Part shown: one piece after another, positions 1 through 24,284 of the stretch
Numbering within the stretch: the first letter of the stretch is position 1
Layout of the letters: the number at the start of each line of letters is the position of its first letter
Virus record (IMG/VR): IMGVR_UViG_3300028388_003056
Span: 1-24,284 of that record
Origin: a virus
DNA: 24,284 bases
Reading direction: 5' to 3' (one strand)
Notes under the pieces: model-generated
What the model was told of the DNA's origin: nothing
Databases searched by the model: none
The model's input: only the letters and a program-made list of their open reading frames with translations
Translations under genes and position numbers: made by a program

Positions 1-1
1 C

Positions 2-70
2 TCCCGAGGGTTTCAGGCTGCGGGGTCCCAACCCCGTAAGGGTCCAACGATCATCTCCGAGGGGTCGTGA
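2..70 (+). CDS. Possible 3' end of an upstream gene (partial)
   Basis: A frame open from the window edge ends in TGA at 68-70, which overlaps the ATG of the small terminase gene as TGATG. That junction is the same tight coupling used throughout this operon. Only about 22 codons are visible and no domain can be recognised. In related phages an HNH nuclease gene often precedes the small terminase, but nothing here proves that. A short hairpin (CGGGGT, loop CCCA, ACCCCG at 21-36) lies inside the stretch and has no T-tract. Another frame is also open over most of this interval, so the call is weak. Confidence 0.25.
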   Translation, partial: SRGFQAAGSQPRKGPTIISEGS

Positions 71-579
71 TGGGTGAACGCGGTCCAGCGAGAAAGCCTA
101 CGTCTCTGATCAAGTTGTCCGGGAACGCCGGCCACCACATCAAGGCAGAGCTCGACAACGAGCCGACTCCGGAGGTTGTGATACCAGAGTGTCCGCACGG
201 GCTTCTCGGAGCTGCGAAGAAGGAATGGTTTCGGATCACGAAGGAGCTCTACGACCAGGGCCTGGTGACGGAGCTCGATGTTCAGCTACTCAAGGACTAC
301 TGCATATCAGTCCAGATCAGAGACGATATGTGGGAGTACATCCGCAAGTGCAAGAAGTACCTGGACGGAGGCATCAAACTCGAGGGTCCAGCAGCCTACT
401 TTTACGGACGCAACAGTCAGACAACGCCAGAATACAACGCGATGAAGTCTGCCCAGGACCGTATCATCGCGATCGCCAAGCAGTTCGGCATGTCTCCGAG
501 CTCACGATCGAGACTCAAGACATTCAAGACCGTAGAAGTCCAAGACGCCGGAATCGAAGGGTTCCTGAATGGGAATTGA
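70..579 (+). CDS. terS: Terminase small subunit, P27 family
   Basis: This is the DNA-recognition subunit of the packaging motor; it binds phage DNA near the packaging start and hands it to the large terminase. The N-terminus (MGERGPARKPTSLIKLSGN) has the basic 'RG-P-KPT-L--L-GN' signature of P27-type small terminases. It is followed by the usual 'KKEWFRI..L...G.LT..D...L..YC' helical segment. Length (169 aa) fits the family. A GTG at 67 is also in frame, but ATG 70 is preferred because GAGGGG at 59-64 sits 5 nt upstream and the ATG overlaps an upstream TGA. The last 11 nt overlap the large terminase gene. Family assignment is by motif recognition only. Confidence 0.88.
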   Translation: MGERGPARKPTSLIKLSGNAGHHIKAELDNEPTPEVVIPECPHGLLGAAKKEWFRITKELYDQGLVTELDVQLLKDYCISVQIRDDMWEYIRKCKKYLDGGIKLEGPAAYFYGRNSQTTPEYNAMKSAQDRIIAIAKQFGMSPSSRSRLKTFKTVEVQDAGIEGFLNGN

Positions 580-1711
580 ATACAGGGCCCAGGAGTACAT
601 TGACGGCGTTCTGAGCGGCGAGATAGTCGCGTGCAAGTGGGTGAAGGCCGCCGTCAGCAGGCACGTGAAGGACCTCGAGCGCGAACGAACTGATGAGTTC
701 CCATATTATTTTGATGAATCGGCGGCGAAGCGTGTCATCGACTTCGTGACTCTTTTCTGCATGCACGTGAAAGGAGACTTCGCCAATCGGCGAGAGTCGC
801 TCGTTCTCGAGCCATGGCAGCAGTTCATAGTCTGGGTCCTGTTCGGGTGGCTCAAGGTATCTGACGGTAAACGAAAGTACACCATTGCATTCATCGAGGT
901 CGCAAAGAAGCAGGGAAAGTCCACGTTTGCCGCGGCGATCGCACTATTCATGTTCGTCGCTGACGGTGAGCAGGGAGCCGAGGTCTACTCTGCGGCTACT
1001 ACTCGAGACCAGGCGAAGATTGTTTTCAACGAGTACGCTCGCGCCATGGTTACGAAGTCTGAGGAGCTGAAGAAGGTCATCGAAGTCTATCGCCATGCGC
1101 TCACCTGCGAGCGATCAATGAGTTCGTTCACCGCGGTATCGAGCGACGTGGATCCGCTCGATGGAAAGAACGCGCACATGGCGATCATAGACGAGTATCA
1201 CGCCCACAAGACCGATGGAGTCTACAACATCATGCGGTACGGAATGGCGGCGAGGAGTCAGCCTCTCTTGTTCGTCATCACAACCGCCGGCTTTGATCCG
1301 AACGTGCCGTGTGTCGACGAGGAAGCGTACGCCATGCGTGTGCTCGATGGGCTTGCAAATGCCGAGGAGTACTTTGCGATCATCTACACACTCGATGAGG
1401 GTGATGAGTGGACGGATGAATCGATGTGGATCAAGGCGAATCCGAATCTCGGGATATCGTCTCCGATCGAGCGAATGCAGGAAGACTTCCGGAAAGCTCT
1501 ACAGAAGCCGGATGAGATCAACAAGTTCAAGAACAAGCGGCTCAACATCTGGACAAAGGCACAGGCTGTCTGGATACGGACCGAGGATTGGGTCGCGATA
1601 TCGAAGCCGTTCGACGTTCCAGACAAGGCGCCATTCTGGGGCGGGATAGACCTGTCGAAGACGAGTGTTCTCGATCAAGGTATCCATCTACCTGCCCGAG
1701 TTCGACATTGA
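569..1711 (+). CDS. terL: Terminase large subunit, N-terminal ATPase part (frameshifted)
   Basis: This is the packaging ATPase of an HK97/Terminase_1-type large terminase. Walker A is visible as AKKQGKST (Lys about 117) and Walker B as MAIIDEYH (Asp 208, Glu 209). The ORF runs into the first nuclease motif, GGIDLS (Asp 361), then loses family-like sequence: its last roughly 17 residues read as out-of-frame and end at TGA 1709-1711. The expected continuation is in the +1 frame (next entry). Start ATG 569 has GAAGGG 7 nt upstream and overlaps terS. Together the two pieces would make about 549 aa, normal for the family. A one-base gain, for example in the TT at 1668-1669, would explain the break, as would a two-base loss. 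Whether it is an assembly error or a true mutation cannot be told here. Confidence 0.9.
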   Translation: MGIEYRAQEYIDGVLSGEIVACKWVKAAVSRHVKDLERERTDEFPYYFDESAAKRVIDFVTLFCMHVKGDFANRRESLVLEPWQQFIVWVLFGWLKVSDGKRKYTIAFIEVAKKQGKSTFAAAIALFMFVADGEQGAEVYSAATTRDQAKIVFNEYARAMVTKSEELKKVIEVYRHALTCERSMSSFTAVSSDVDPLDGKNAHMAIIDEYHAHKTDGVYNIMRYGMAARSQPLLFVITTAGFDPNVPCVDEEAYAMRVLDGLANAEEYFAIIYTLDEGDEWTDESMWIKANPNLGISSPIERMQEDFRKALQKPDEINKFKNKRLNIWTKAQAVWIRTEDWVAISKPFDVPDKAPFWGGIDLSKTSVLDQGIHLPARVRH

Positions 1712-2216
1712 CGAACGTGAGAAACGAGAGCGGGTTCCTTGGCGGATGTGGGTCGAAGATGGACATGTGTATCTCACTCCCGGCCGGACGGTCGACTACG
1801 ACTTCATTCAGGCCGAGGTCACGAAAGACGCCGCGCAATACGAGCTCCGCGAGCTCGCGTACGATCCGTTCAACAGTTCGCAGTTCATCGCGAATCTCGA
1901 GAAAGACGGTCTCGGCGAGCGTCTGGTCGAATACCCTCAGAACTGGAAATACGTCTCGCCGGCGGCGAAAGACTTCCAGTCAAAGATTCTGAATCAGCGG
2001 ATGAGAGTATTCCCGAACCCGTGTCTTGACTGGATGGTCTCGTGTACAGAGGTCCGTTCGGACGTGAACGGGAATATCCGTCCGGTAAAGCCGGACATTG
2101 CGAAGACGACAAAGCACATAGACGGAGTGATCGCAGCAATGATGGCACTCGATCGGGCTGTTCGGCACCAGGACGAGGCAAGCATCTACGAAAAGCGCGG
2201 AGTGATATCAGTTTGA
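1665..2216 (+). CDS. terL: Terminase large subunit, C-terminal nuclease part (frameshifted)
   Basis: This is the remainder of the large terminase, in the +1 frame relative to the ATPase part. It carries the RNase H-like nuclease domain that cuts concatemeric DNA. Visible family features are the conserved 'ELAYDPFNSSQF' segment, which supplies a metal-binding Asp, and the C-terminal 'HIDGVIAAMMALDRAV', typical of the end of HK97-type large terminases. The first nuclease Asp lies in the other frame, upstream of the break, so this piece alone would lack a complete active site. The GTG at 1665 has no convincing ribosome binding site, so independent translation is unlikely. It ends at TGA 2214-2216, overlapping the next gene's probable TTG start. 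Confidence 0.85.
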   Translation: MFSIKVSIYLPEFDIDEREKRERVPWRMWVEDGHVYLTPGRTVDYDFIQAEVTKDAAQYELRELAYDPFNSSQFIANLEKDGLGERLVEYPQNWKYVSPAAKDFQSKILNQRMRVFPNPCLDWMVSCTEVRSDVNGNIRPVKPDIAKTTKHIDGVIAAMMALDRAVRHQDEASIYEKRGVISV

Positions 2217-14904: not shown

Positions 14905-16934
14905 TGTCGTACTTCATTCCTGTCGGTGGGACCTGGAATACAACGATCAAGGACCGCACGAATCCTCGATACTGGAAGGTCCTCATCGACACTGACGGCG
15001 ATGATTCTGTCGATGATGTAACGAGCCAGATTTACAATAACGAGATATCAGGCGGGCAGCGTAAAGGCTCGACCGCGGCGCAGTGGACCGTTACGCTCCG
15101 CAACTCGCAGCAGACCTACCAAGAAGGCGATCTCGCCGGTCGAAAAGCGGAGATTCAGGCGAAGGTCGCGAGCGAGTCGTATATCACGGTGTTCACCGGG
15201 TACGTATCGGATGCAGGCTGTCAGCGAAGCAAGACATCCCTCACCGAAGACAAAGTGACGCTGACGCTGTTTGACCTCGTAAAGACAAAGGCCACGCGCA
15301 GAAAGACCGACGCAGCCATCTACTCAGGATTCGACATCTCAGACACTGCCAGCACATCAACGTCACTTATCCACACGCTTGCTGGCATGATGGGGCTTTC
15401 TGCCTCTGACATGGACATCACAGACATCAACCACGCGGTGACGCTTGTCAGCCTCGACGCGAAAGCTACTGCGTGGAAGGAGCTCCAGCGGATCGCCGAG
15501 CAATACCTCGCCGACATGTATGTGCGGTATGACGGCAAGCTCAGGTTCCGCTCCCGATTCGAGACCGGCTGGAGCGCGCCGAGCTCTGAGTGGGATTTCT
15601 ACACGTCCGGCGAAAACGCGAACGTTCACTCGCCATGGTCAGGATCTATGCGCCCGAAGTCGTGTACCAGGTGCGAGACATCATATGACGACTACGAGGA
15701 TGTTGGATCGCAGCAGGTATACAAGAATACCGACGAATGGGTCTCGGCTACGGAGCAGAATGCCATCGTTGTCGGGGCCGGAGAATACTGGCCTGGTCCA
15801 GGTTCAGGCGACGTAGCCAGGCTGAAGTACAAAGATCCAAAAAGTGGTGAGGAGTTTCCGTTTGTAAGAGACGTCAGTACCCCGTCAATTGGGGCTACTG
15901 GCAGCGGGTCAAACATAGAGTGTTCTGGCGGACTGCTCACGCTTGTGTCGTTCAATGGGTCAACATCAGCCACACAGCAGAACGCCGACTCATCAGAGAT
16001 CATTCTCCAGAACGCAACAGGGTCTCCCGTTACAATCACAAAGTTCGAGCTCTGGGCAGATCATCCGTACCGTGTCAGCGCGAACAACACTGTTAAACAC
16101 ATCGATAGCGCGGTCTCCAATGAGGAAGACCACGTCGATAAGAGTCTCGACGGCAAGTACGCATCAGACGACGACCAGGCTCACGAGTCGTGCGAATACA
16201 CAGTGGAGTTCGGGAAGGACGACCGGGAGGAATATGAGCTTACGGTAGACTGGCTTCCGCAGGTCCAGAAGCGAGCGCTCGTCACGTTCAACATCGTCGA
16301 GGAGTCCAGGTCGGTTACCTGTTATGTGGAGTCGTTTACCCATGTTGCCTCTGGACCAATGGCTCGGTGGAAAACGCGGCTCAGTCTCATCAAGTATGAA
16401 TCGTATACCTATTCTGGGTCTAATCGAATAGTCAGAGCTCTCAGTATCGGAGATATCCGACCGACGATCGATGGAATAAACAGCGGAATCACGGATGCAC
16501 AGGATTCTGCCGACTCTGCGCAGACCGACGCAACACAGGCACTTGCTGATGCGGCGACAGCGATTACAGACGCGGCGACCGCCCAAACAGCTGCAGAGCT
16601 CGCGCAATACCTCGTCACCGTCTTCTTCGATGCAATGACGATTCATCCAAGCTCTACAAGCTCACGGTTCGGGCGCGGAAAACGGCTGGATCGGGATTAT
16701 TCTATGCCGGGGTCGAAGGGATTGCCGCCGATGGAGCTACGCTTGTCAATACGTCTGGGCTTGATGCGCACTCAGCTCAGCACTATGTATCAGCGAGTGA
16801 TGTGTCGCTGGGCACATCTTGGACCGAGTACGTTGGCTATTTCTCGGGACACGGCACGTATATACCAAACGCGAGCAACCCGGCGAACCCGTCCGGGCTG
16901 CATTCGGATGCCCGGTACTTCCGTCCGGTTTTGA
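14904..16934 (+). CDS. Tail-tip/fibre protein, N-terminal part (frameshifted)
   Basis: This is the first part of a very large tail-tip protein directly after the tape measure, the place of the distal tail/tip hub genes. GTG 14904 has GGAG 8 nt upstream and overlaps the tape measure stop. Residues 1 to about 530 are a mixed-fold baseplate-hub-like section ('WKVLIDTDGDDSVDDVTSQI', 'WKELQRIAEQYLADMYVRYDGKLRFRSR' in parts). An Ala-rich coiled linker ('DSADSAQTDATQALADAATA') follows near 540-565. Beyond codon about 577 the reading becomes basic and fibre-unlike up to the stop at 16934, while the -1 frame becomes meaningful. One lost base in the A-run at 16634-16635 would explain the break (reading FDA-N-DDSSKLYKL). 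So this is probably not a separate gene. Confidence 0.83.
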   Translation: MSYFIPVGGTWNTTIKDRTNPRYWKVLIDTDGDDSVDDVTSQIYNNEISGGQRKGSTAAQWTVTLRNSQQTYQEGDLAGRKAEIQAKVASESYITVFTGYVSDAGCQRSKTSLTEDKVTLTLFDLVKTKATRRKTDAAIYSGFDISDTASTSTSLIHTLAGMMGLSASDMDITDINHAVTLVSLDAKATAWKELQRIAEQYLADMYVRYDGKLRFRSRFETGWSAPSSEWDFYTSGENANVHSPWSGSMRPKSCTRCETSYDDYEDVGSQQVYKNTDEWVSATEQNAIVVGAGEYWPGPGSGDVARLKYKDPKSGEEFPFVRDVSTPSIGATGSGSNIECSGGLLTLVSFNGSTSATQQNADSSEIILQNATGSPVTITKFELWADHPYRVSANNTVKHIDSAVSNEEDHVDKSLDGKYASDDDQAHESCEYTVEFGKDDREEYELTVDWLPQVQKRALVTFNIVEESRSVTCYVESFTHVASGPMARWKTRLSLIKYESYTYSGSNRIVRALSIGDIRPTIDGINSGITDAQDSADSAQTDATQALADAATAITDAATAQTAAELAQYLVTVFFDAMTIHPSSTSSRFGRGKRLDRDYSMPGSKGLPPMELRLSIRLGLMRTQLSTMYQRVMCRWAHLGPSTLAISRDTARIYQTRATRRTRPGCIRMPGTSVRF

Positions 16935-19900
16935 TCTGTAATTACAGTGCTGCTGCCGGGATCACGGAGGTCGATTTATTCAAGATCGAGGACGTGACTG
17001 ACATATACGCGGCGCAGGCGACAGCCGACGGGAAGGTGACGACGTTCTACCAGGCGACCGCTCCGACCCAGGCGACCGCTCCGACTGCGGAGGGGGCAGG
17101 CGACCTCTGGATCGACACCGACGACGACCGGCTGTATCGGTGGAACGGCTCGACGTGGGCTGAGATACAGGACGCAGACATTGCGACGGCGATAGCTGAT
17201 GCGGCGACAGCGCAGACTACGGCTGACGGGAAGATTGTTACGTTCTACGCGGCAGCGGCACCGACCGCCGAGGGGACCGGTGATCTGTGGGTGGACACCG
17301 ACGACGGCAACCGGCTGTACCGGTGGAACGGCTCGACGTGGGATGATGTGCAAGACGGTGCGATTGCTACAGCGCAAGCCACAGCAGATAACAACCAGGA
17401 GCTCTCACCACCCGAAGAAGATCTCGTCTGCTATTGGTCGATGGACGACGGGGCCCCAGGGGCGAGTGCTTCTAATGGGGATACGATTGAGGATCAGTCA
17501 GAGAACGAGATCCAACTCGCTGTGGCTGGGACTCCGTCATATGTGATAGGCAAAAGCGGATCTGCTCTCGACAACCCGGGGAACGGAACCTGCTATCTCC
17601 AATCGACCGGCTTTACTGCACTATCGTTTCCGAACGGCTTCTCCATGTCATTCTGGCTGAATCTTGACGTAGTCAACACTGATTACGACCGCTATGCACT
17701 GAACTGCTCCGGGAGCTTCCAACTTCACACGATGAGGTCATGGACGACTGCGCCGTGGGTGTACATCTACACCGCCGGTGGGTATGACTACGTCAGCAGT
17801 GCAGCACTAGGTGCCAACACTTGGTATCACTTTGTCGTGAGCTACGACAACACGATAATCCGGGTCTATCGAGATGGCGTTCAGGTAGGCACCAAAACTC
17901 ATGCGTACGGTGGCGCCATCGTTGACCCCGCTTTCGAACTCCTTGTCACAAACAACCGATTCGACGGATCTATTGACGAGGTGTGCATATTCGACTCTGC
18001 ACTGACCATCGAACACGTCCGCTGGCTCTACCGCCACCCCGGATGGATCTCGCGGACGATGGTCACTAGCCGTCACGTCCGCAAAGCTTCGCTCGCAGGC
18101 GACCGCATACAACTCTCATCAATAGACCACACGCGCGTTGACACAACGCAGTGGATGACAGACCCCGGATTCGAGAATCTTGTGTTCCACATGCCATTTG
18201 AAGACAAGCCTGTTGGCGAAAGCGCAGCGGCCGGTGATGAGATCAACGACGTGTTCGGCGGCCATGTTGGAACAGCAACTGGGACGCCAGACTTCGTGGC
18301 TGGCAAGGCTGGAGGCGCGCTGGATTTCAACGGTTCTGAGTACGTCACTTCGGGATTCGTCGATCTATCAAGTGCGTCCGAAGCGTCGTGGTCTTTTTGG
18401 TTCGAGTATTCCTCGTATTCCGGGACCAACAACCCCATCAAGCATGGCGTGTTTAACAACGACGGGGTTGATTTTCAGTTAAACCTGAACGGGTTGCGTG
18501 CCGTCTACAACAATTCAGGAGCCGCTCAAGCGACCGCGTACAAGGCTGTTTCCTCTGGAGTATGGACCCACGTTTGCGTGGCGTTCGACGGTACCGACTG
18601 TCTGATGTACGTCGATGGGGTCCTGCATGACACCACTACCTTCGCTATGGTGTTACCCAATCGTGCGGTAGTCTGCGGTCAGATAACCGGATCGGTCGAC
18701 GAGGTTCGCGTATACGCGAAAGCTCTGTCAGCAGCCGAAGTCCGCTATCTCTATCTCAACCCGGGCGGCTCACCACGCAACGGCGTCAACCGCAACAGCG
18801 TGGGAGTGGCGGAGCTTTCATCGAGACATTTGCGCTTTGGTGGACTCGACGTGCTCACGGAAAAGGGTGCTGCGGCGCTGACAACCGATGAGATATTTCC
18901 ACTGGACTTCTCTGCACGATCCAACCAGGGTAGGGGGCCCGTAAAGAAATCGTTTCAGTGGGTGCCAGAAAAGTATTTTGATCACGACGAGTCAGAGTAC
19001 GACAATCCTCGAGCAAAGGGATGGGACAGCGATTCTTGGCGCACTCCGGTCATAGGGTTTTGGCCGGCGGGAACGAATCTGGTCGCTGATCCAGAAGACC
19101 TCACAACAGCAAGCTGGTCAAAGAACGAATGTACTGCCGCACTCACCGATGAATACTTCGATGGCAAGCGATGGACAAAGGTCACCGTGTCCGGTGGGGC
19201 CACTAATGCCTACGTGATACAGAACGTCGCGTGGTCAGGCTCGGATAACTGCCTGCGGATACTTGTCCGCAACAACAGCACGCCAACCGCAGGACGAGAC
19301 ACGAGAGTTCAATTCTACGACTCGACAGGTGGGGTTATCGGATACGTTGACATCGAGTGGGATCTGGAGGCTGCAACTGCAGGCGATGGGGCTACTCTAT
19401 ACGATGAGCATTGGTTCGATTCGGATACGGTCGAAATTGCGTTTTCTCAAGGCACTGGGACACAATCTGGTACTGCGGGTATCCTGATCAACCCGGACAT
19501 CACTCATACCGCCGGGACCGAAGTATGGATCACTGCTGTGCAGATTGAAAACAACGCATGGCCCACGCCGTACATGCCATCAGCAAGGCCAATCTCCGGG
19601 CTATACTACCGCTACTCGTGGGGGGCAACCGGATACCTGGACCTGTGGTGCAGGCCACGATTCGATTTTGATTGCGCAAACGGGCAGCACATTATCTCCG
19701 ACTACGATTCCGATGCCGCCAGTGGAAATGCGGTCAATTTCGATCTCTACTACGATCCCTCGAGTGACCAGTTCAAAGTCGCATTGACACGTGCCGGTAC
19801 CAACCTAAGCTGTGCCGCAGGACACAACGGGACGGCCTGGGGATCATCCAATGCGTTTGCGGCGAATACATACCTCCACGACTGGATACACATCCAAGTG

Positions 19901-20764
19901 TATTGGGAAACCGGAGGGTCAACCGATGTGCTCACCCTCTGGATCAACGGCACACAGATTGACACTGATACGGATACGGCTTCGGCTGTGGTGTTCAATA
20001 ACAACCTCTCCGTCGGTTCCATCCCGCTGTACTCGACGCCAGCCAATGGTGTCTTCTCAGGCGAGCTTGCTGATCTGCGGATAGGTGCCACGTCAGGATC
20101 TGCACACGCATCGGCAGATATTCCATACGTCGACCCGAACTCTGTCCCGAACTACACCAACTCCCTGATACTTGATCGCTACGGCATCAAGATCAGCCGC
20201 GGCGATATCTCGATGGTTGATCGGTACGGACGATTCATTGATGTCGGGAGTCAGGGGCTGCTTGTGCGGGATCGGAACGGGCAGGTTGTACATGACATCC
20301 CGGACGCACCGGCAGTGGTCGGTGGGTATAGTATGGGGCATCTTTTCTGGTTCAAAGATGACTCTTCATATGTGATTCTGTCGGGTTCAACAAGTGGAGC
20401 TCCGTTGAGTGGCAGTATCACACTTTCCAGCTGGTACACAGGAGTACAGTGCCTGACAGAGGGCATTGAAAATGCAAAAGGCGGATTGTTCTCGATCCTC
20501 ACCTACTACGACAGTTCTCCAGGTGGTAGGTCAACGGCAGGAGTCCAAGTGTATATGCGGCCTAACGGTTCGGGCTGGACTTTTGCTACTGATCCGGCGC
20601 TCCCGGGAACAGGACTCTTTGTAGAAACGTCCGGGAACTACTTGTACCAGGCCCGTAGTGTAGGATCGATAGCGTGCCCGTTTGGCGATTCAGACCAAGT
20701 AGACATATACCTCAGCGGCGCGGCGAGCTACATAAGGATAATCCAGTTGGGGGTGTTCGTGTGA
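16802..20764 (+). CDS. Tail-tip/fibre protein, C-terminal LamG-rich part (frameshifted)
   Basis: The longest open stretch (1,320 codons from GTG 16802). The same frame is open and clearly protein-like upstream to about 16634 ('SSKLYKLTVRARKTAGSG', then 'YAGVEGIAADGATLVN'), so the true protein continues from the previous entry, about 1,950 aa in all. It contains two repeats with the motif RLYRWNGSTW (nt 17024-17383). Two clear LamG-like domains follow (about 17400-18050 and 18172-18775, each with 'W-h--v-yd---i-vyrDG' and a final 'GSIDEVCIFDSALT' or 'GSVDEVRVYAKALS' strand). A third, looser one lies around 19600-20110. The end, after 'RYGIKISRGDISMVDRYGRF', is a fibre-tip-like beta section. 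It is likely to be the host-binding part. No independent start signal at 16802 is convincing. Confidence 0.85.
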   Translation: MSLGTSWTEYVGYFSGHGTYIPNASNPANPSGLHSDARYFRPVLICNYSAAAGITEVDLFKIEDVTDIYAAQATADGKVTTFYQATAPTQATAPTAEGAGDLWIDTDDDRLYRWNGSTWAEIQDADIATAIADAATAQTTADGKIVTFYAAAAPTAEGTGDLWVDTDDGNRLYRWNGSTWDDVQDGAIATAQATADNNQELSPPEEDLVCYWSMDDGAPGASASNGDTIEDQSENEIQLAVAGTPSYVIGKSGSALDNPGNGTCYLQSTGFTALSFPNGFSMSFWLNLDVVNTDYDRYALNCSGSFQLHTMRSWTTAPWVYIYTAGGYDYVSSAALGANTWYHFVVSYDNTIIRVYRDGVQVGTKTHAYGGAIVDPAFELLVTNNRFDGSIDEVCIFDSALTIEHVRWLYRHPGWISRTMVTSRHVRKASLAGDRIQLSSIDHTRVDTTQWMTDPGFENLVFHMPFEDKPVGESAAAGDEINDVFGGHVGTATGTPDFVAGKAGGALDFNGSEYVTSGFVDLSSASEASWSFWFEYSSYSGTNNPIKHGVFNNDGVDFQLNLNGLRAVYNNSGAAQATAYKAVSSGVWTHVCVAFDGTDCLMYVDGVLHDTTTFAMVLPNRAVVCGQITGSVDEVRVYAKALSAAEVRYLYLNPGGSPRNGVNRNSVGVAELSSRHLRFGGLDVLTEKGAAALTTDEIFPLDFSARSNQGRGPVKKSFQWVPEKYFDHDESEYDNPRAKGWDSDSWRTPVIGFWPAGTNLVADPEDLTTASWSKNECTAALTDEYFDGKRWTKVTVSGGATNAYVIQNVAWSGSDNCLRILVRNNSTPTAGRDTRVQFYDSTGGVIGYVDIEWDLEAATAGDGATLYDEHWFDSDTVEIAFSQGTGTQSGTAGILINPDITHTAGTEVWITAVQIENNAWPTPYMPSARPISGLYYRYSWGATGYLDLWCRPRFDFDCANGQHIISDYDSDAASGNAVNFDLYYDPSSDQFKVALTRAGTNLSCAAGHNGTAWGSSNAFAANTYLHDWIHIQVYWETGGSTDVLTLWINGTQIDTDTDTASAVVFNNNLSVGSIPLYSTPANGVFSGELADLRIGATSGSAHASADIPYVDPNSVPNYTNSLILDRYGIKISRGDISMVDRYGRFIDVGSQGLLVRDRNGQVVHDIPDAPAVVGGYSMGHLFWFKDDSSYVILSGSTSGAPLSGSITLSSWYTGVQCLTEGIENAKGGLFSILTYYDSSPGGRSTAGVQVYMRPNGSGWTFATDPALPGTGLFVETSGNYLYQARSVGSIACPFGDSDQVDIYLSGAASYIRIIQLGVFV
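17024..17383 (+). repeat. Two tandem repeat units in the tail fibre gene
   Basis: Unit 1 (17024-17221, 198 nt) and unit 2 (17222-17383, 162 nt) both code ADGK..TFY, an APTAEG.GDLW.DTDD segment, RLYRWNGSTW and a Q-rich/Ala-rich linker. Unit 1 also holds an exact-looking 18-bp tandem copy (17051-17068 and 17069-17086, last base differing) that adds QATAPT. Such units are common as spacers in phage tail fibres and could vary in number. Confidence 0.8.
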
Positions 20765-21920: not shown

Positions 21921-21971
21921 ATGAAATACGTTCTCATTGATGAGGAACGCTATCTGGGGTCCGTCCGATGA
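21921..21971 (+). CDS. 16-codon ORF coupled to the C39-like peptidase
   Basis: A 16-residue ORF (MKYVLIDEERYLGSVR) with a very good ribosome site (GGAGG, 5 nt before ATG 21921). Its TGA overlaps the next gene's ATG as ATGA at 21968-21971. The following peptidase has no clear ribosome site of its own, so translating this small ORF may be what loads ribosomes onto it. It could be a genuine small peptide or just a coupling leader. Too short for other evidence. Confidence 0.5.
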   Translation: MKYVLIDEERYLGSVR

Positions 21972-22579
21972 TCAGTAACTTCTCGAGCGGGATCCCCTAC
22001 CACACGCAGCGCAACAACCAGGTCGTTCCATACGCAAGCTGCAACACTACTTCGATGATTATGGCGCTCAAACAGGCGGGAAGGGATCTGCCTCCGTGCT
22101 ACGACAAACAGCCAGAGGATGAGCTCTCGAGGTTTTTGAGAACACAAGAAGCCTTCCAAAAGCAGAAGGAGCTGGCGGGGTGGTCGGTCGGGGCTTATGC
22201 TCCGCAGGAAGTGCACGCTGTACTCGAGTGGGGCGTGAATCAATGGATGGGCGCCGAGGTGGATTCATTCATGACGAGCGCGCGGACCGCTGATTTGCTG
22301 GTCGAGCTTGACAGCGGCGGAGGGGCTGTGCTTTCCGGACGGTTCCCCATGCCGTCGGGTGATCTCGGGCACATCGTTTCACTCGCCGGATGGATCTCAA
22401 ATGAACACGGCGAAATCGAACAGTGGATCATCGACGATCCGTATGGGAACTGGCATACAGGATATACCGACTACCGAGGGAATGATGTTCTGCTTTCGAC
22501 CAATGAGTTCAAGCGGATATTCGATCGATCAGGCGACGGAGAGTATTGGGCTCACTTGATCCGGGCGCATGAGGGGTAA
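21968..22579 (+). CDS. C39-like cysteine peptidase, probable endolysin
   Basis: A 203-aa protein with the Peptidase_C39_2 layout: the Cys motif 'VPYASCNTTSMIMALK' (Cys 25), 'MPSGDLGHIVSLAGW' (His 135) and 'QWIIDDPYGNW' (Asp 156/157). Related phage proteins act as peptidoglycan-cleaving endolysins, and the gene lies directly before a holin gene, supporting lysis. No signal peptide or cell-wall-binding repeat is visible, so export would rely on the holin. It starts at ATG 21968, overlapping the 16-codon ORF. The exact bond cut is unknown. Confidence 0.78.
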   Translation: MISNFSSGIPYHTQRNNQVVPYASCNTTSMIMALKQAGRDLPPCYDKQPEDELSRFLRTQEAFQKQKELAGWSVGAYAPQEVHAVLEWGVNQWMGAEVDSFMTSARTADLLVELDSGGGAVLSGRFPMPSGDLGHIVSLAGWISNEHGEIEQWIIDDPYGNWHTGYTDYRGNDVLLSTNEFKRIFDRSGDGEYWAHLIRAHEG

Positions 22580-22583
22580 TCAC

Positions 22584-23078
22584 ATGGCTGGATTTGCAGA
22601 GAAGATCGGAGAGCTGATTGGTTCTGGCGTCGGGTCTCTCGTGAAAGACGTCGGAGAGACCGTGGATACCTTTGTTCACACCGGTGATGAGAAAGCGGAG
22701 TGGGAGCTGAAGAAGAAGGAGCTCGAGCTTTCGGCAAAAAGGATGGCGATTGAGGTTCAGGAGCTCTACTTGTCCGATCGCCAGTCGGCCCGCCAAATGT
22801 ATATGAAGGACTCAGGGCTGCAGAAAGCGTTCGCGATCATATTCCTGGCCGGTTACCTTGCGATAACCGGTCTCATGATCTGGCTGGTCGTCGGATGGCT
22901 CGGTGGCGGAGGGCTCGATCTGCCGACGTGGGCGGTGTCCCTCGTTTCCATGGTGTTCACGGCGATGTCAACGAAGGTCAATACGATTGTTGATTTCCTT
23001 TTCGGCGGAAGCCAGGGAGAGCGGGACAACGCCGGAGCGATATCGCGATCGTTCCAAGACGGCGCCGGCGGCTCGTAG
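22584..23078 (+). CDS. Holin of the 3TM superfamily (gene-transfer-agent type)
   Basis: A 164-aa inner-membrane protein that is expected to open the membrane and time lysis. Residues 1-35 are a Gly/Ile/Val amphipathic stretch, then a charged helix ('DEKAEWELKKKELELSAKRM'). The family marker 'LSDRQSARQMYMKD' follows, then two strong membrane segments ('AFAIIFLAGYLAITGLMIWL' and 'WAVSLVSMVFTAMSTKVNTI') and the ending 'FLFGGSQGERD'. This matches the 3TM holin type known from gene transfer agents and many prophages. ATG 22584 is chosen because GAGGGG (22571-22576) sits 7 nt upstream. It is the last gene of the late block; the attP region follows. Confidence 0.8.
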   Translation: MAGFAEKIGELIGSGVGSLVKDVGETVDTFVHTGDEKAEWELKKKELELSAKRMAIEVQELYLSDRQSARQMYMKDSGLQKAFAIIFLAGYLAITGLMIWLVVGWLGGGGLDLPTWAVSLVSMVFTAMSTKVNTIVDFLFGGSQGERDNAGAISRSFQDGAGGS

Positions 23079-23093
23079 AACCTCATGTGTGAC

Positions 23094-23112
23094 TGTGCCA
23101 CAATTGTGCCAC
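23094..23112 (+). repeat. Left pair of arm-type direct repeats
   Basis: Two copies of TGTGCCAC at 23094-23101 and 23105-23112, about one helical turn apart. With the right-hand group (23331-23359) they flank the tRNA-like core, as integrase arm sites do. Further inverted partial copies (GTGGCA) occur at 23139-23144 and 23200-23205. Integrase binding is inferred from the arrangement. Confidence 0.62.
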
Positions 23113-23156
23113 GTTTTCTGAAAAGGTACGAACTGGTAGTGGCAAAAAACACGACA

Positions 23157-23162
23157 TATAAT
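23157..23162 (+). promoter_or_regulatory. Candidate -10 element in attP
   Basis: TATAAT at 23157-23162 is an exact sigma-70 -10 hexamer. No good -35 is present at 16-18 bp, though an A-run (about 23145-23149) stands upstream. If active, transcription would start near 23169 and cross the tRNA-like core to the terminator at 23297-23320, giving a short RNA of about 150 nt. A lone hexamer can occur by chance. Confidence 0.35.
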
Positions 23163-23218
23163 AGAAGGACTGGTCCACAATGGGCGCTACATGTAGTCAG
23201 TGGCATGGGTGCATGATG

Positions 23219-23260
23219 CTTTTAAGCTGTGGGTCGCAGGTTCGATCCCTGCGCGGCTCA
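23219..23260 (+). other. attP core: 3' half of a tRNA-Lys(UUU) gene
   Basis: The core begins with the anticodon loop CTTTTAA (23219-23225, anticodon TTT at 23221-23223). The 3' stem strand GCTGT, variable GGGTC, T arm GCAGG/TTCGATC/CCTGC (23236-23252), acceptor strand GCGGCTC (23253-23259) and discriminator A follow. The 5' side is not tRNA: TGATG before the loop cannot pair with GCTGT, and the matching acceptor strand GAGCCGC is missing. A 3' half-tRNA beside an integrase is how attP sites that use tRNA genes look: on integration, the phage copy restores the host tRNA. It is less likely to be a working tRNA. Confidence 0.78.
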
Positions 23261-23296
23261 AACACAAATCATTATAGGTAAACAAGTTACAAATTG

Positions 23297-23320
23297 GGCA
23301 TCCTCCGGGGTGCCTTTTTT
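23297..23320 (+). terminator. Intrinsic terminator between late genes and integrase
   Basis: A 7-bp stem (GGCATCC 23297-23303 with GGGTGCC 23308-23314, one T-G wobble) has a 4-nt loop and is followed by six T (23315-23320). It would end late-operon transcription after the holin gene and any transcript from inside attP, and it keeps late transcription out of the integrase gene. Confidence 0.78.
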
Positions 23321-23330
23321 GGTTGCATTC

Positions 23331-23359
23331 TGTGCCCAAGTGTGCCAAAATTGTGCCAC
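23331..23359 (+). repeat. Right group of arm-type direct repeats
   Basis: Three direct copies, TGTGCCCA (23331-23338), TGTGCCAA (23341-23348) and TGTGCCAC (23352-23359), spaced 10 and 11 bp. They match the left pair and lie between the tRNA-like core and the integrase gene. Because they precede the integrase start, bound integrase could also repress its own gene; that is inference. Confidence 0.65.
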
Positions 23360-23432
23360 AAATGAATTGCGGTTCGTCGGCTCCGGGGTGCTGAACGCCT
23401 CTTGAGGCCCGTCGAACACGCATCGAGGCGTA

Positions 23433-24284
23433 ATGAAACGGCCATATCTGCTCAAGAAACGCGGGAAATACTGGTACTACCGCCTGCCAAGTCAGAAGAC
23501 ATTCCATTCCACCGGACAGACCGCCGAAGGTCGAGCTCACGACTACGTGATGAAAGAGGTCCTATCGCGTCCGGCGGCGGCCGGGTCCGCAACGCTCGGT
23601 GAGCTGCTTGCGCCGGCGTACGTCTGGAACATCTGTCCTCATGTCAGGCGGCTACGTGATGAGGGAAAGATCATCTCCGAGCAGCATGCAGCGAACCAGA
23701 GGTCTATCATCGAGCGACTGGTACTCCCGGATCAGATCTGCAGGCGGGTTGCGCAGGAACTCACCCGGGGCGACATGATCGCGCTCCGTGAGAGGATCCG
23801 GTCCGAGACGACCGTTGGGCAGACGAACAAGGCCATGATGGCGTTGCGGACTATGCTGAACGAATACGTCTTTCGTCAGGAGCTCGAGCGCAATCCCATG
23901 GATGGCGTCGGGAAGCTGAAAGAGGAACGAGGAGAGCGCGGCGTCCTGTCTGCCGATGAGATCAGGGCGGTGTTCGACGAGTGCCCGGGCGTGTGGGGGC
24001 ATCTCCAGGCGTATACGGTGTTCCTGCTCGCGGCGGCGACCGGCATGAGGAAAGGCGAGATCCTTGCTTTGACATGGGATCAGATCGACTTCGACAACCA
24101 GGCCATTCATGTCCGGCGCGCGTTCAAAGGCAACGGGGAACCGGGTAGGCCGAAATGGGAGAAGATCCGGACGACGTTCCTCCCGTTGAAGGTGAAAGAC
24201 TCTCTGCTCGAGGTCAGGAACCGATCACTCCACGTGCTTCCGAACTCTCTTGTGTTCTGTGACGCCGACGGGAGACGCCGCGGC
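23433..24284 (+). CDS. int: Tyrosine-recombinase integrase (partial, runs off the end)
   Basis: This enzyme inserts the phage at the tRNA-Lys gene through attP. The visible 284 codons start at ATG 23433 (GAGG 4 nt upstream) and stay open to the window end. An N-terminal arm-binding/AP2-like segment ('LLKKRGKYWYYRLP') is followed by a core-binding helical domain (about residues 55-160). The catalytic domain then starts 'LSADEIRAVFDECPG', and the first catalytic Arg lies in 'ATGMRKGEILALTWDQID' (Arg 206). A beta-hairpin with a basic patch ('FKGNGEPGRPKWEKIRTTFLPL') probably carries the active Lys. The H-x-x-R motif and Tyr lie beyond the window. Other phage genes, such as repressor and replication, would be expected downstream. 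Confidence 0.92.
   Translation, partial: MKRPYLLKKRGKYWYYRLPSQKTFHSTGQTAEGRAHDYVMKEVLSRPAAAGSATLGELLAPAYVWNICPHVRRLRDEGKIISEQHAANQRSIIERLVLPDQICRRVAQELTRGDMIALRERIRSETTVGQTNKAMMALRTMLNEYVFRQELERNPMDGVGKLKEERGERGVLSADEIRAVFDECPGVWGHLQAYTVFLLAAATGMRKGEILALTWDQIDFDNQAIHVRRAFKGNGEPGRPKWEKIRTTFLPLKVKDSLLEVRNRSLHVLPNSLVFCDADGRRRG

Follow-up and report, generated by a model that had tools for sequence, protein, structure and literature searches.

In the linear virus record IMGVR_UViG_3300028388_003056 (24,284 bases, guanine-plus-cytosine (GC) content 0.567; the whole stretch is called the window below) we identified a 42-base segment that corresponds to the 3′ half of a bacterial transfer RNA (tRNA) gene, tRNA-Lys(UUU). 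We hold with high confidence that the segment belongs to the phage attachment site (attP) of a lambda-type tyrosine integrase (Int) that targets the anticodon loop of the host tRNA-Lys(UUU) gene, and that the contig is an unintegrated form of the phage. The site has the features of the anticodon-loop 3′-fragment class of attP: the core corresponds to a tRNA gene from its anticodon loop to its 3′ end, a tyrosine integrase gene stands beside the tRNA fragment, phage DNA is found on both sides (late genes on the left, the integrase on the right), and repeats of the arm type, which from their sequence may be bound by Int, surround the core. The core and its presumed overlap region are as follows.

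23219..23260, plus strand: attP common core, the tRNA-Lys(UUU) 3′ half from the anticodon loop to the discriminator base (sequence, exact genome scan and ARAGORN)
23219..23225, plus strand: anticodon loop CTTTTAA, the presumed 7-base-pair (bp) overlap region for strand exchange, placed here from the sequence and by analogy with the anticodon-loop class

The segment reads without a break as the anticodon loop CTTTTAA with the anticodon TTT, the 3′ strand of the anticodon stem (GCTGT), the variable loop (GGGTC), the T arm (GCAGG TTCGATC CCTGC), the 3′ acceptor strand (GCGGCTC) and the discriminator base A. A first-pass annotation of this DNA had taken it for the 3′ half of tRNA-Lys(UUU), identical to the tRNA from the start of the anticodon loop up to the discriminator and lacking the 5′ half, and had predicted a bacterial gene with ACAGC before the loop and GAGCCGC as the 5′ acceptor strand. 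These proposals were borne out by an exact scan of 84,980 species genomes, in which the 42-mer was present in three bacterial genomes. ARAGORN calls tRNA-Lys(ttt) at all three loci, the boundaries of the identity agree with the host genes, and all three genes read GAGCCGC...ACAGC directly 5′ of the core, showing that bacterial tRNA-Lys genes sharing the core exist. The 5′ half is indeed absent, as the host 5′ half has mismatches at 21 of 31 positions at the expected place and at least 12 anywhere in the window, 12 being the best placement; the next best match to the core itself in the whole window has 19 mismatches. No complete tRNA was found in the window with ARAGORN, and cmscan gave no tRNA match in 22900-23600 at E ≤ 10. 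A chance match to tRNA-Lys is excluded, and a whole phage tRNA was rejected because the 5′ half is missing. The phage copy ends at the discriminator, with AAAC in the window where the exact-core host genes have CCA.

Phage genes adjoin the core on both sides, with tail, head and terminase genes located further left of the last late genes, and the integrase frame starts 173 bases downstream of the core on the same strand.

23433..24284, plus strand: tyrosine integrase gene of 284 codons, truncated by the contig end upstream of the catalytic HxxR and Tyr (PF00589, E 2e-9; phrog_1, E 5e-33)
22569..23078, plus strand: last late gene before attP, encoding a small membrane-like protein (phrog_1544, unknown function), which we take to be holin-like
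21968..22579, plus strand: C39-like peptidase, a probable lysis or late gene (PF13529, E 0.003, below the cut-off), common to the related phage described below (36%)

Because phage genes are present on both sides, the site was assigned to attP, and the junctions of an integrated prophage (attL and attR) were rejected.

The flanks of the core carry a pair of direct repeats on each side and a hairpin on the right.

23094..23112, plus strand: left (P) arm-type repeat pair TGTGCCACAATTGTGCCAC, 19 bases, found by repeat analysis, putatively Int-binding
23341..23359, plus strand: right (P′) arm-type repeat pair TGTGCCAAAATTGTGCCAC, 19 bases, found by repeat analysis, putatively Int-binding
23331: degenerate further unit TGTGCCC in the right arm
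23296..23320, plus strand: terminator-like hairpin with T run, 36 bases 3′ of the tRNA half (z -4.3), a candidate terminator

Both repeat pairs have the form TGTGCCA-N4-TGTGCCA in direct orientation. Measured from the centre of the anticodon loop, the TGTGCCA units start at -128, -117, +119 and +130, and the phasing is 11 bases. Exact TGTGCCA occurs five times in the window, four of them within the two pairs. Of 3000 random placements in the window, 17 gave a 19-mer direct repeat of the same quality across a gap the size of the core, and the longest exact left/right repeat was matched in 25 of 2000. We regard the pairs as putative lambda-like arm-type Int sites; the repeats alone are fair evidence for this, which is strengthened by their symmetrical placement around the anticodon loop. 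The search for terminator-like hairpins gave one against 0.6 in shuffled sequences. The one Rfam match, TarB, overlaps this element; at E 3.1 it is below threshold and was set aside as chance.

A degenerate scan of viral contigs with the core gave one record, IMGVR_UViG_3300037264_002859 (G192; 37,240 bases, GC 0.618). Its core is identical to the 3′ half in the window at 40 of 42 positions and lacks both the 5′ half and CCA (GATAG follows), and its integrase gene starts about 95 bases downstream of the core on the same strand. The G192 integrase has the full tyrosine-recombinase domain and is 35% identical to that of the window (E 1.6e-50, query residues 9-284). The terminase subunits, head protease, tail proteins and C39-like peptidase are also common to the two phages, with conserved gene order. 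To the left of the G192 core there are open frames without family match, and the late genes stand at the other contig end; if the record is read as a circle, the order in G192 would also be late genes, core, integrase. One of its proteins, encoded shortly before the attachment site (L105, 826-1761), has 311 residues built of repeated HALSANGLAAGAPVLAHP-like units and no family match. In G192 the distance from the integrase start (2422) to the small terminase (17703) is about 15.3 kilobases (kb), and on account of this span an early region of about that length is probably missing from the window. The assignment to attP is strengthened by the paired arm-type repeats and by the occurrence in G192 of the same 3′ half beside a related integrase.

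Several points weigh against this assignment. The random-placement tests are only moderately strong, and the TGTGCCA search pattern was built from the sites themselves. On visual reading, the left side of attP and the GCTGT side do not form a good inverted repeat. The arm repeats of G192 are different and weaker, the longest exact left/right repeat being 9 bases, and no TGTGCCA pairs flank its core; the TGTGCCA-N4-TGTGCCA pair was likewise present in 0 of 80 distant viral integrase loci (the best 80 of 419). The catalytic tyrosine of the integrase is beyond the contig end and hence not seen. Finally, no integrated copy (attL/attR) of the window phage or of G192 was found in one exact genome scan and small genome sets, nor did these genomes show a prophage of this phage starting at tRNA-Lys(UUU).

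Among the alternatives, a tandem lysogen survives best, although we consider it quite unlikely: two prophages would sit side by side in one tRNA-Lys gene, the late end of the first meeting the integrase end of the other, and the 3′ half would be an internal attachment site between them. Tandem arrays are known, and Islander lists 125 cases of two or more (PMC4383910). As such a junction would read identically, the earlier claim of an unintegrated form holds in that a core placed between late genes and the integrase is incompatible with attL or attR, but this arrangement does not distinguish it from two adjoining prophages. However, GC is even across the window (0.54-0.62), and G192 too has non-host-like DNA on the left of its core and the integrase on the right, which is explained most simply as the native attP order. 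That the segment is a degenerate tRNA remnant or a phage-borne tRNA fragment with no role in attachment would fit with the incomplete phage and the failure to find an integrated copy; this is very improbable in view of the 42/42 match to a live tRNA gene with its end precisely at the discriminator base, the flanking arm repeats and adjoining integrase, and the retention of the fragment in a phage with an integrase of just 35% identity. The scarcely credible last alternative is tRNA-dependent lysogeny, in which the host tRNA-Lys gene is disrupted on integration and a tRNA-Lys carried by the phage takes its place, as described for the mycobacteriophage Fionnbharth with the same isotype (tRNA-Lys-TTT) and subsite (PMC10865867); it is largely refuted, since the sequence shared in that system is described as only about 10 bp (PMC10865867) against a core here of 42 bp reaching the discriminator, and since the phage tRNA that it needs is found neither in the window, a partial genome, nor in the 37.2 kb of G192, each with 0 tRNA genes.

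For an attP in the anticodon loop of tRNA-Lys(UUU), we infer by analogy with known systems the position of strand exchange, Int binding, the rebuilding of the tRNA and the function of the terminator. In this model Int would contact the TGTGCCA pairs of both arms together with core sites around the anticodon loop, and attP would recombine with the host gene by strand exchange within CTTTTAA. Integration would thereby join the host 5′ half to the 42-base 3′ half of the phage and rebuild a working tRNA gene next to int, with the phage terminator behind it. The former 3′ half of the host gene would come to lie at the opposite end of the prophage. The contig of the window would represent the circular, replicating or virion form.

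Relatives of the integrase were sought in viral contigs and genomes. As a single query it found one distant viral contig, and the G192 integrase found only itself. A two-integrase profile found only distant viral contigs, with a best E of 1e-14 among the best 80 of 419; of the 60 loci scanned from these 80, none has a tRNA-Lys and three have any tRNA. A search of 13 genomes and records for the integrase gave none, and the nearest integrases in phage records are less than 30% identical. At E ≤ 1e-10 the profile matched 7 of 80 genomes at 10 loci, five of which have a tRNA gene and one of which, L222 (G150:C120, 2050-2400), has tRNA-Lys(TTT). At this locus of a bacterial genome the 3′ end of an intact tRNA-Lys(TTT) gene faces the integrase, with TGTGCCAGAAATGTGCCA between them; this TGTGCCA-N4-TGTGCCA pair is located approximately 87 and 98 bases from the centre of the loop. 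The exact pair is present in L222 alone among five sets of loci (80 viral integrase, 10 genome integrase including L222, 6 Dependentiae integrase, 77 terminase/portal and 30 tRNA loci), and a looser form also occurs in L218. The L222 integrase points the other way and its tRNA differs in sequence; L222 adds to the case for attP as an analogue chosen post hoc, not as a copy. The TGTGCCA pair may mark an integrase lineage that targets tRNA-Lys.

The first-pass annotation had also expected the core to give a link to the host genus, which was not obtained: the exact core leads only to three Dependentiae-like metagenome-assembled genomes. Two of these are titled TM6/Dependentiae and one (locus L004) only 'bacterium', its genome G002 being among the 101 of the phylum. 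The core was found exactly in 3 of these 101 genomes and within three mismatches in 14. The same 14 were the only ones among 181 'relatives' genomes (0 of 80 outside the 101 of the phylum), and at this limit further genome sets gave 0 of 9, 0 of 3 and 0 of 57. It is nevertheless unlikely that this is a temperate Dependentiae phage (candidate phylum TM6, bacteria with small genomes) that integrates into their tRNA-Lys(UUU). This host is disfavoured because CCA is encoded in all 10 tRNA-Lys loci read out of the 14, whereas the phage copies lack it, because the GC of the Dependentiae loci is 0.38-0.47 versus 0.567 in the window and 0.618 in G192, and because no close integrase or terminase is present there, a terminase match being found in 1 of the 101 genomes (34%) and weak integrase matches only in 6. 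No prophage of the window phage was found in Dependentiae genomes. With a looser pattern, 42 of 80 genomes outside the Dependentiae list gave a match, so broadly similar tRNA-Lys genes are widespread; in 30 of these loci aligned and read by eye, 17 lack CCA, and genes that combine a similar acceptor end with the lack of CCA are present in other genomes. In E. coli the core matches something in 5375 of 5426 genomes at a loose limit, and all five matches listed are tRNA-Lys at 81%. The exact core was not found in viral contigs, plasmids gave no match to it, and phages gave one 34-base match, annotated as tRNA-Arg, in Erwinia phage Hallingskeid. Terminase and portal relatives are less than 60% identical and scattered over many hosts; with identities this low and hosts so many, the terminase, portal and integrase relatives do not name a host. 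Since records very close to the window may be missing from the genome scans, a host outside them is quite possible.

Some observations concern the rest of the window. The contig begins shortly before the small terminase gene (window 1-66, with terS at 67), similar to the contigs of several relatives, and in several relatives' loci the large-terminase match is located about 490-610 bases from the contig start; the left end of the window may be a real virion end (cos) and not a random assembly break. The large terminase frame appears split, with 569-1711 and 1665-2216 both matching one longer G192 frame (window 569-2216), which suggests a frameshift or a sequencing error near 1690. In the tail region, 16802-20764 encodes a protein of 1320 residues with three laminin-G/concanavalin-like stretches and a 78-base internal duplication (copies at 17119 and 17302). 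The late gene at 22569-23078 gave no relatives when used as bait.

For two related uncultivated phages these results give an exact predicted insertion point, the anticodon loop of tRNA-Lys(UUU). The rebuilt gene is predicted to read GAGCCGC...ACAGC-CTTTTAA-...-GCGGCTCA, probably without encoded CCA, and would serve as a searchable tag for the host of both.

The attB of phage lambda is not a tRNA gene, and the lambda core is 15 bp. In lambda attP, the prototype (PMC10865867), the core likewise lies between arm-type Int repeats, and the 7-base anticodon loop with its stem is described as resembling the overlap and core sites of lambda attB (PMC8371274). The attP of mycobacteriophage Boilgate and attB-4 of M. 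smegmatis likewise involve tRNA-Lys-TTT with a core that includes the tRNA 3′ half (PMC10865867); Boilgate is a different phage, and the likeness is one of description. A typical common core is given as 30-45 bp and includes the tRNA 3′ half (PMC10865867). In Islander, a 3′ fragment is recorded for 3760 islands and an anticodon-centred attP site for 2083 (PMC4383910). The site in the window resembles the anticodon-centred (A) 3′-fragment islands described there, with a tDNA fragment from the anticodon loop and a tyrosine integrase alongside (PMC4383910); in contrast to those islands, no integrated copy is known here and attP itself is seen in a phage contig. It is an ordinary attP in a tRNA-Lys(UUU) gene, one more case of a large and well-studied class.
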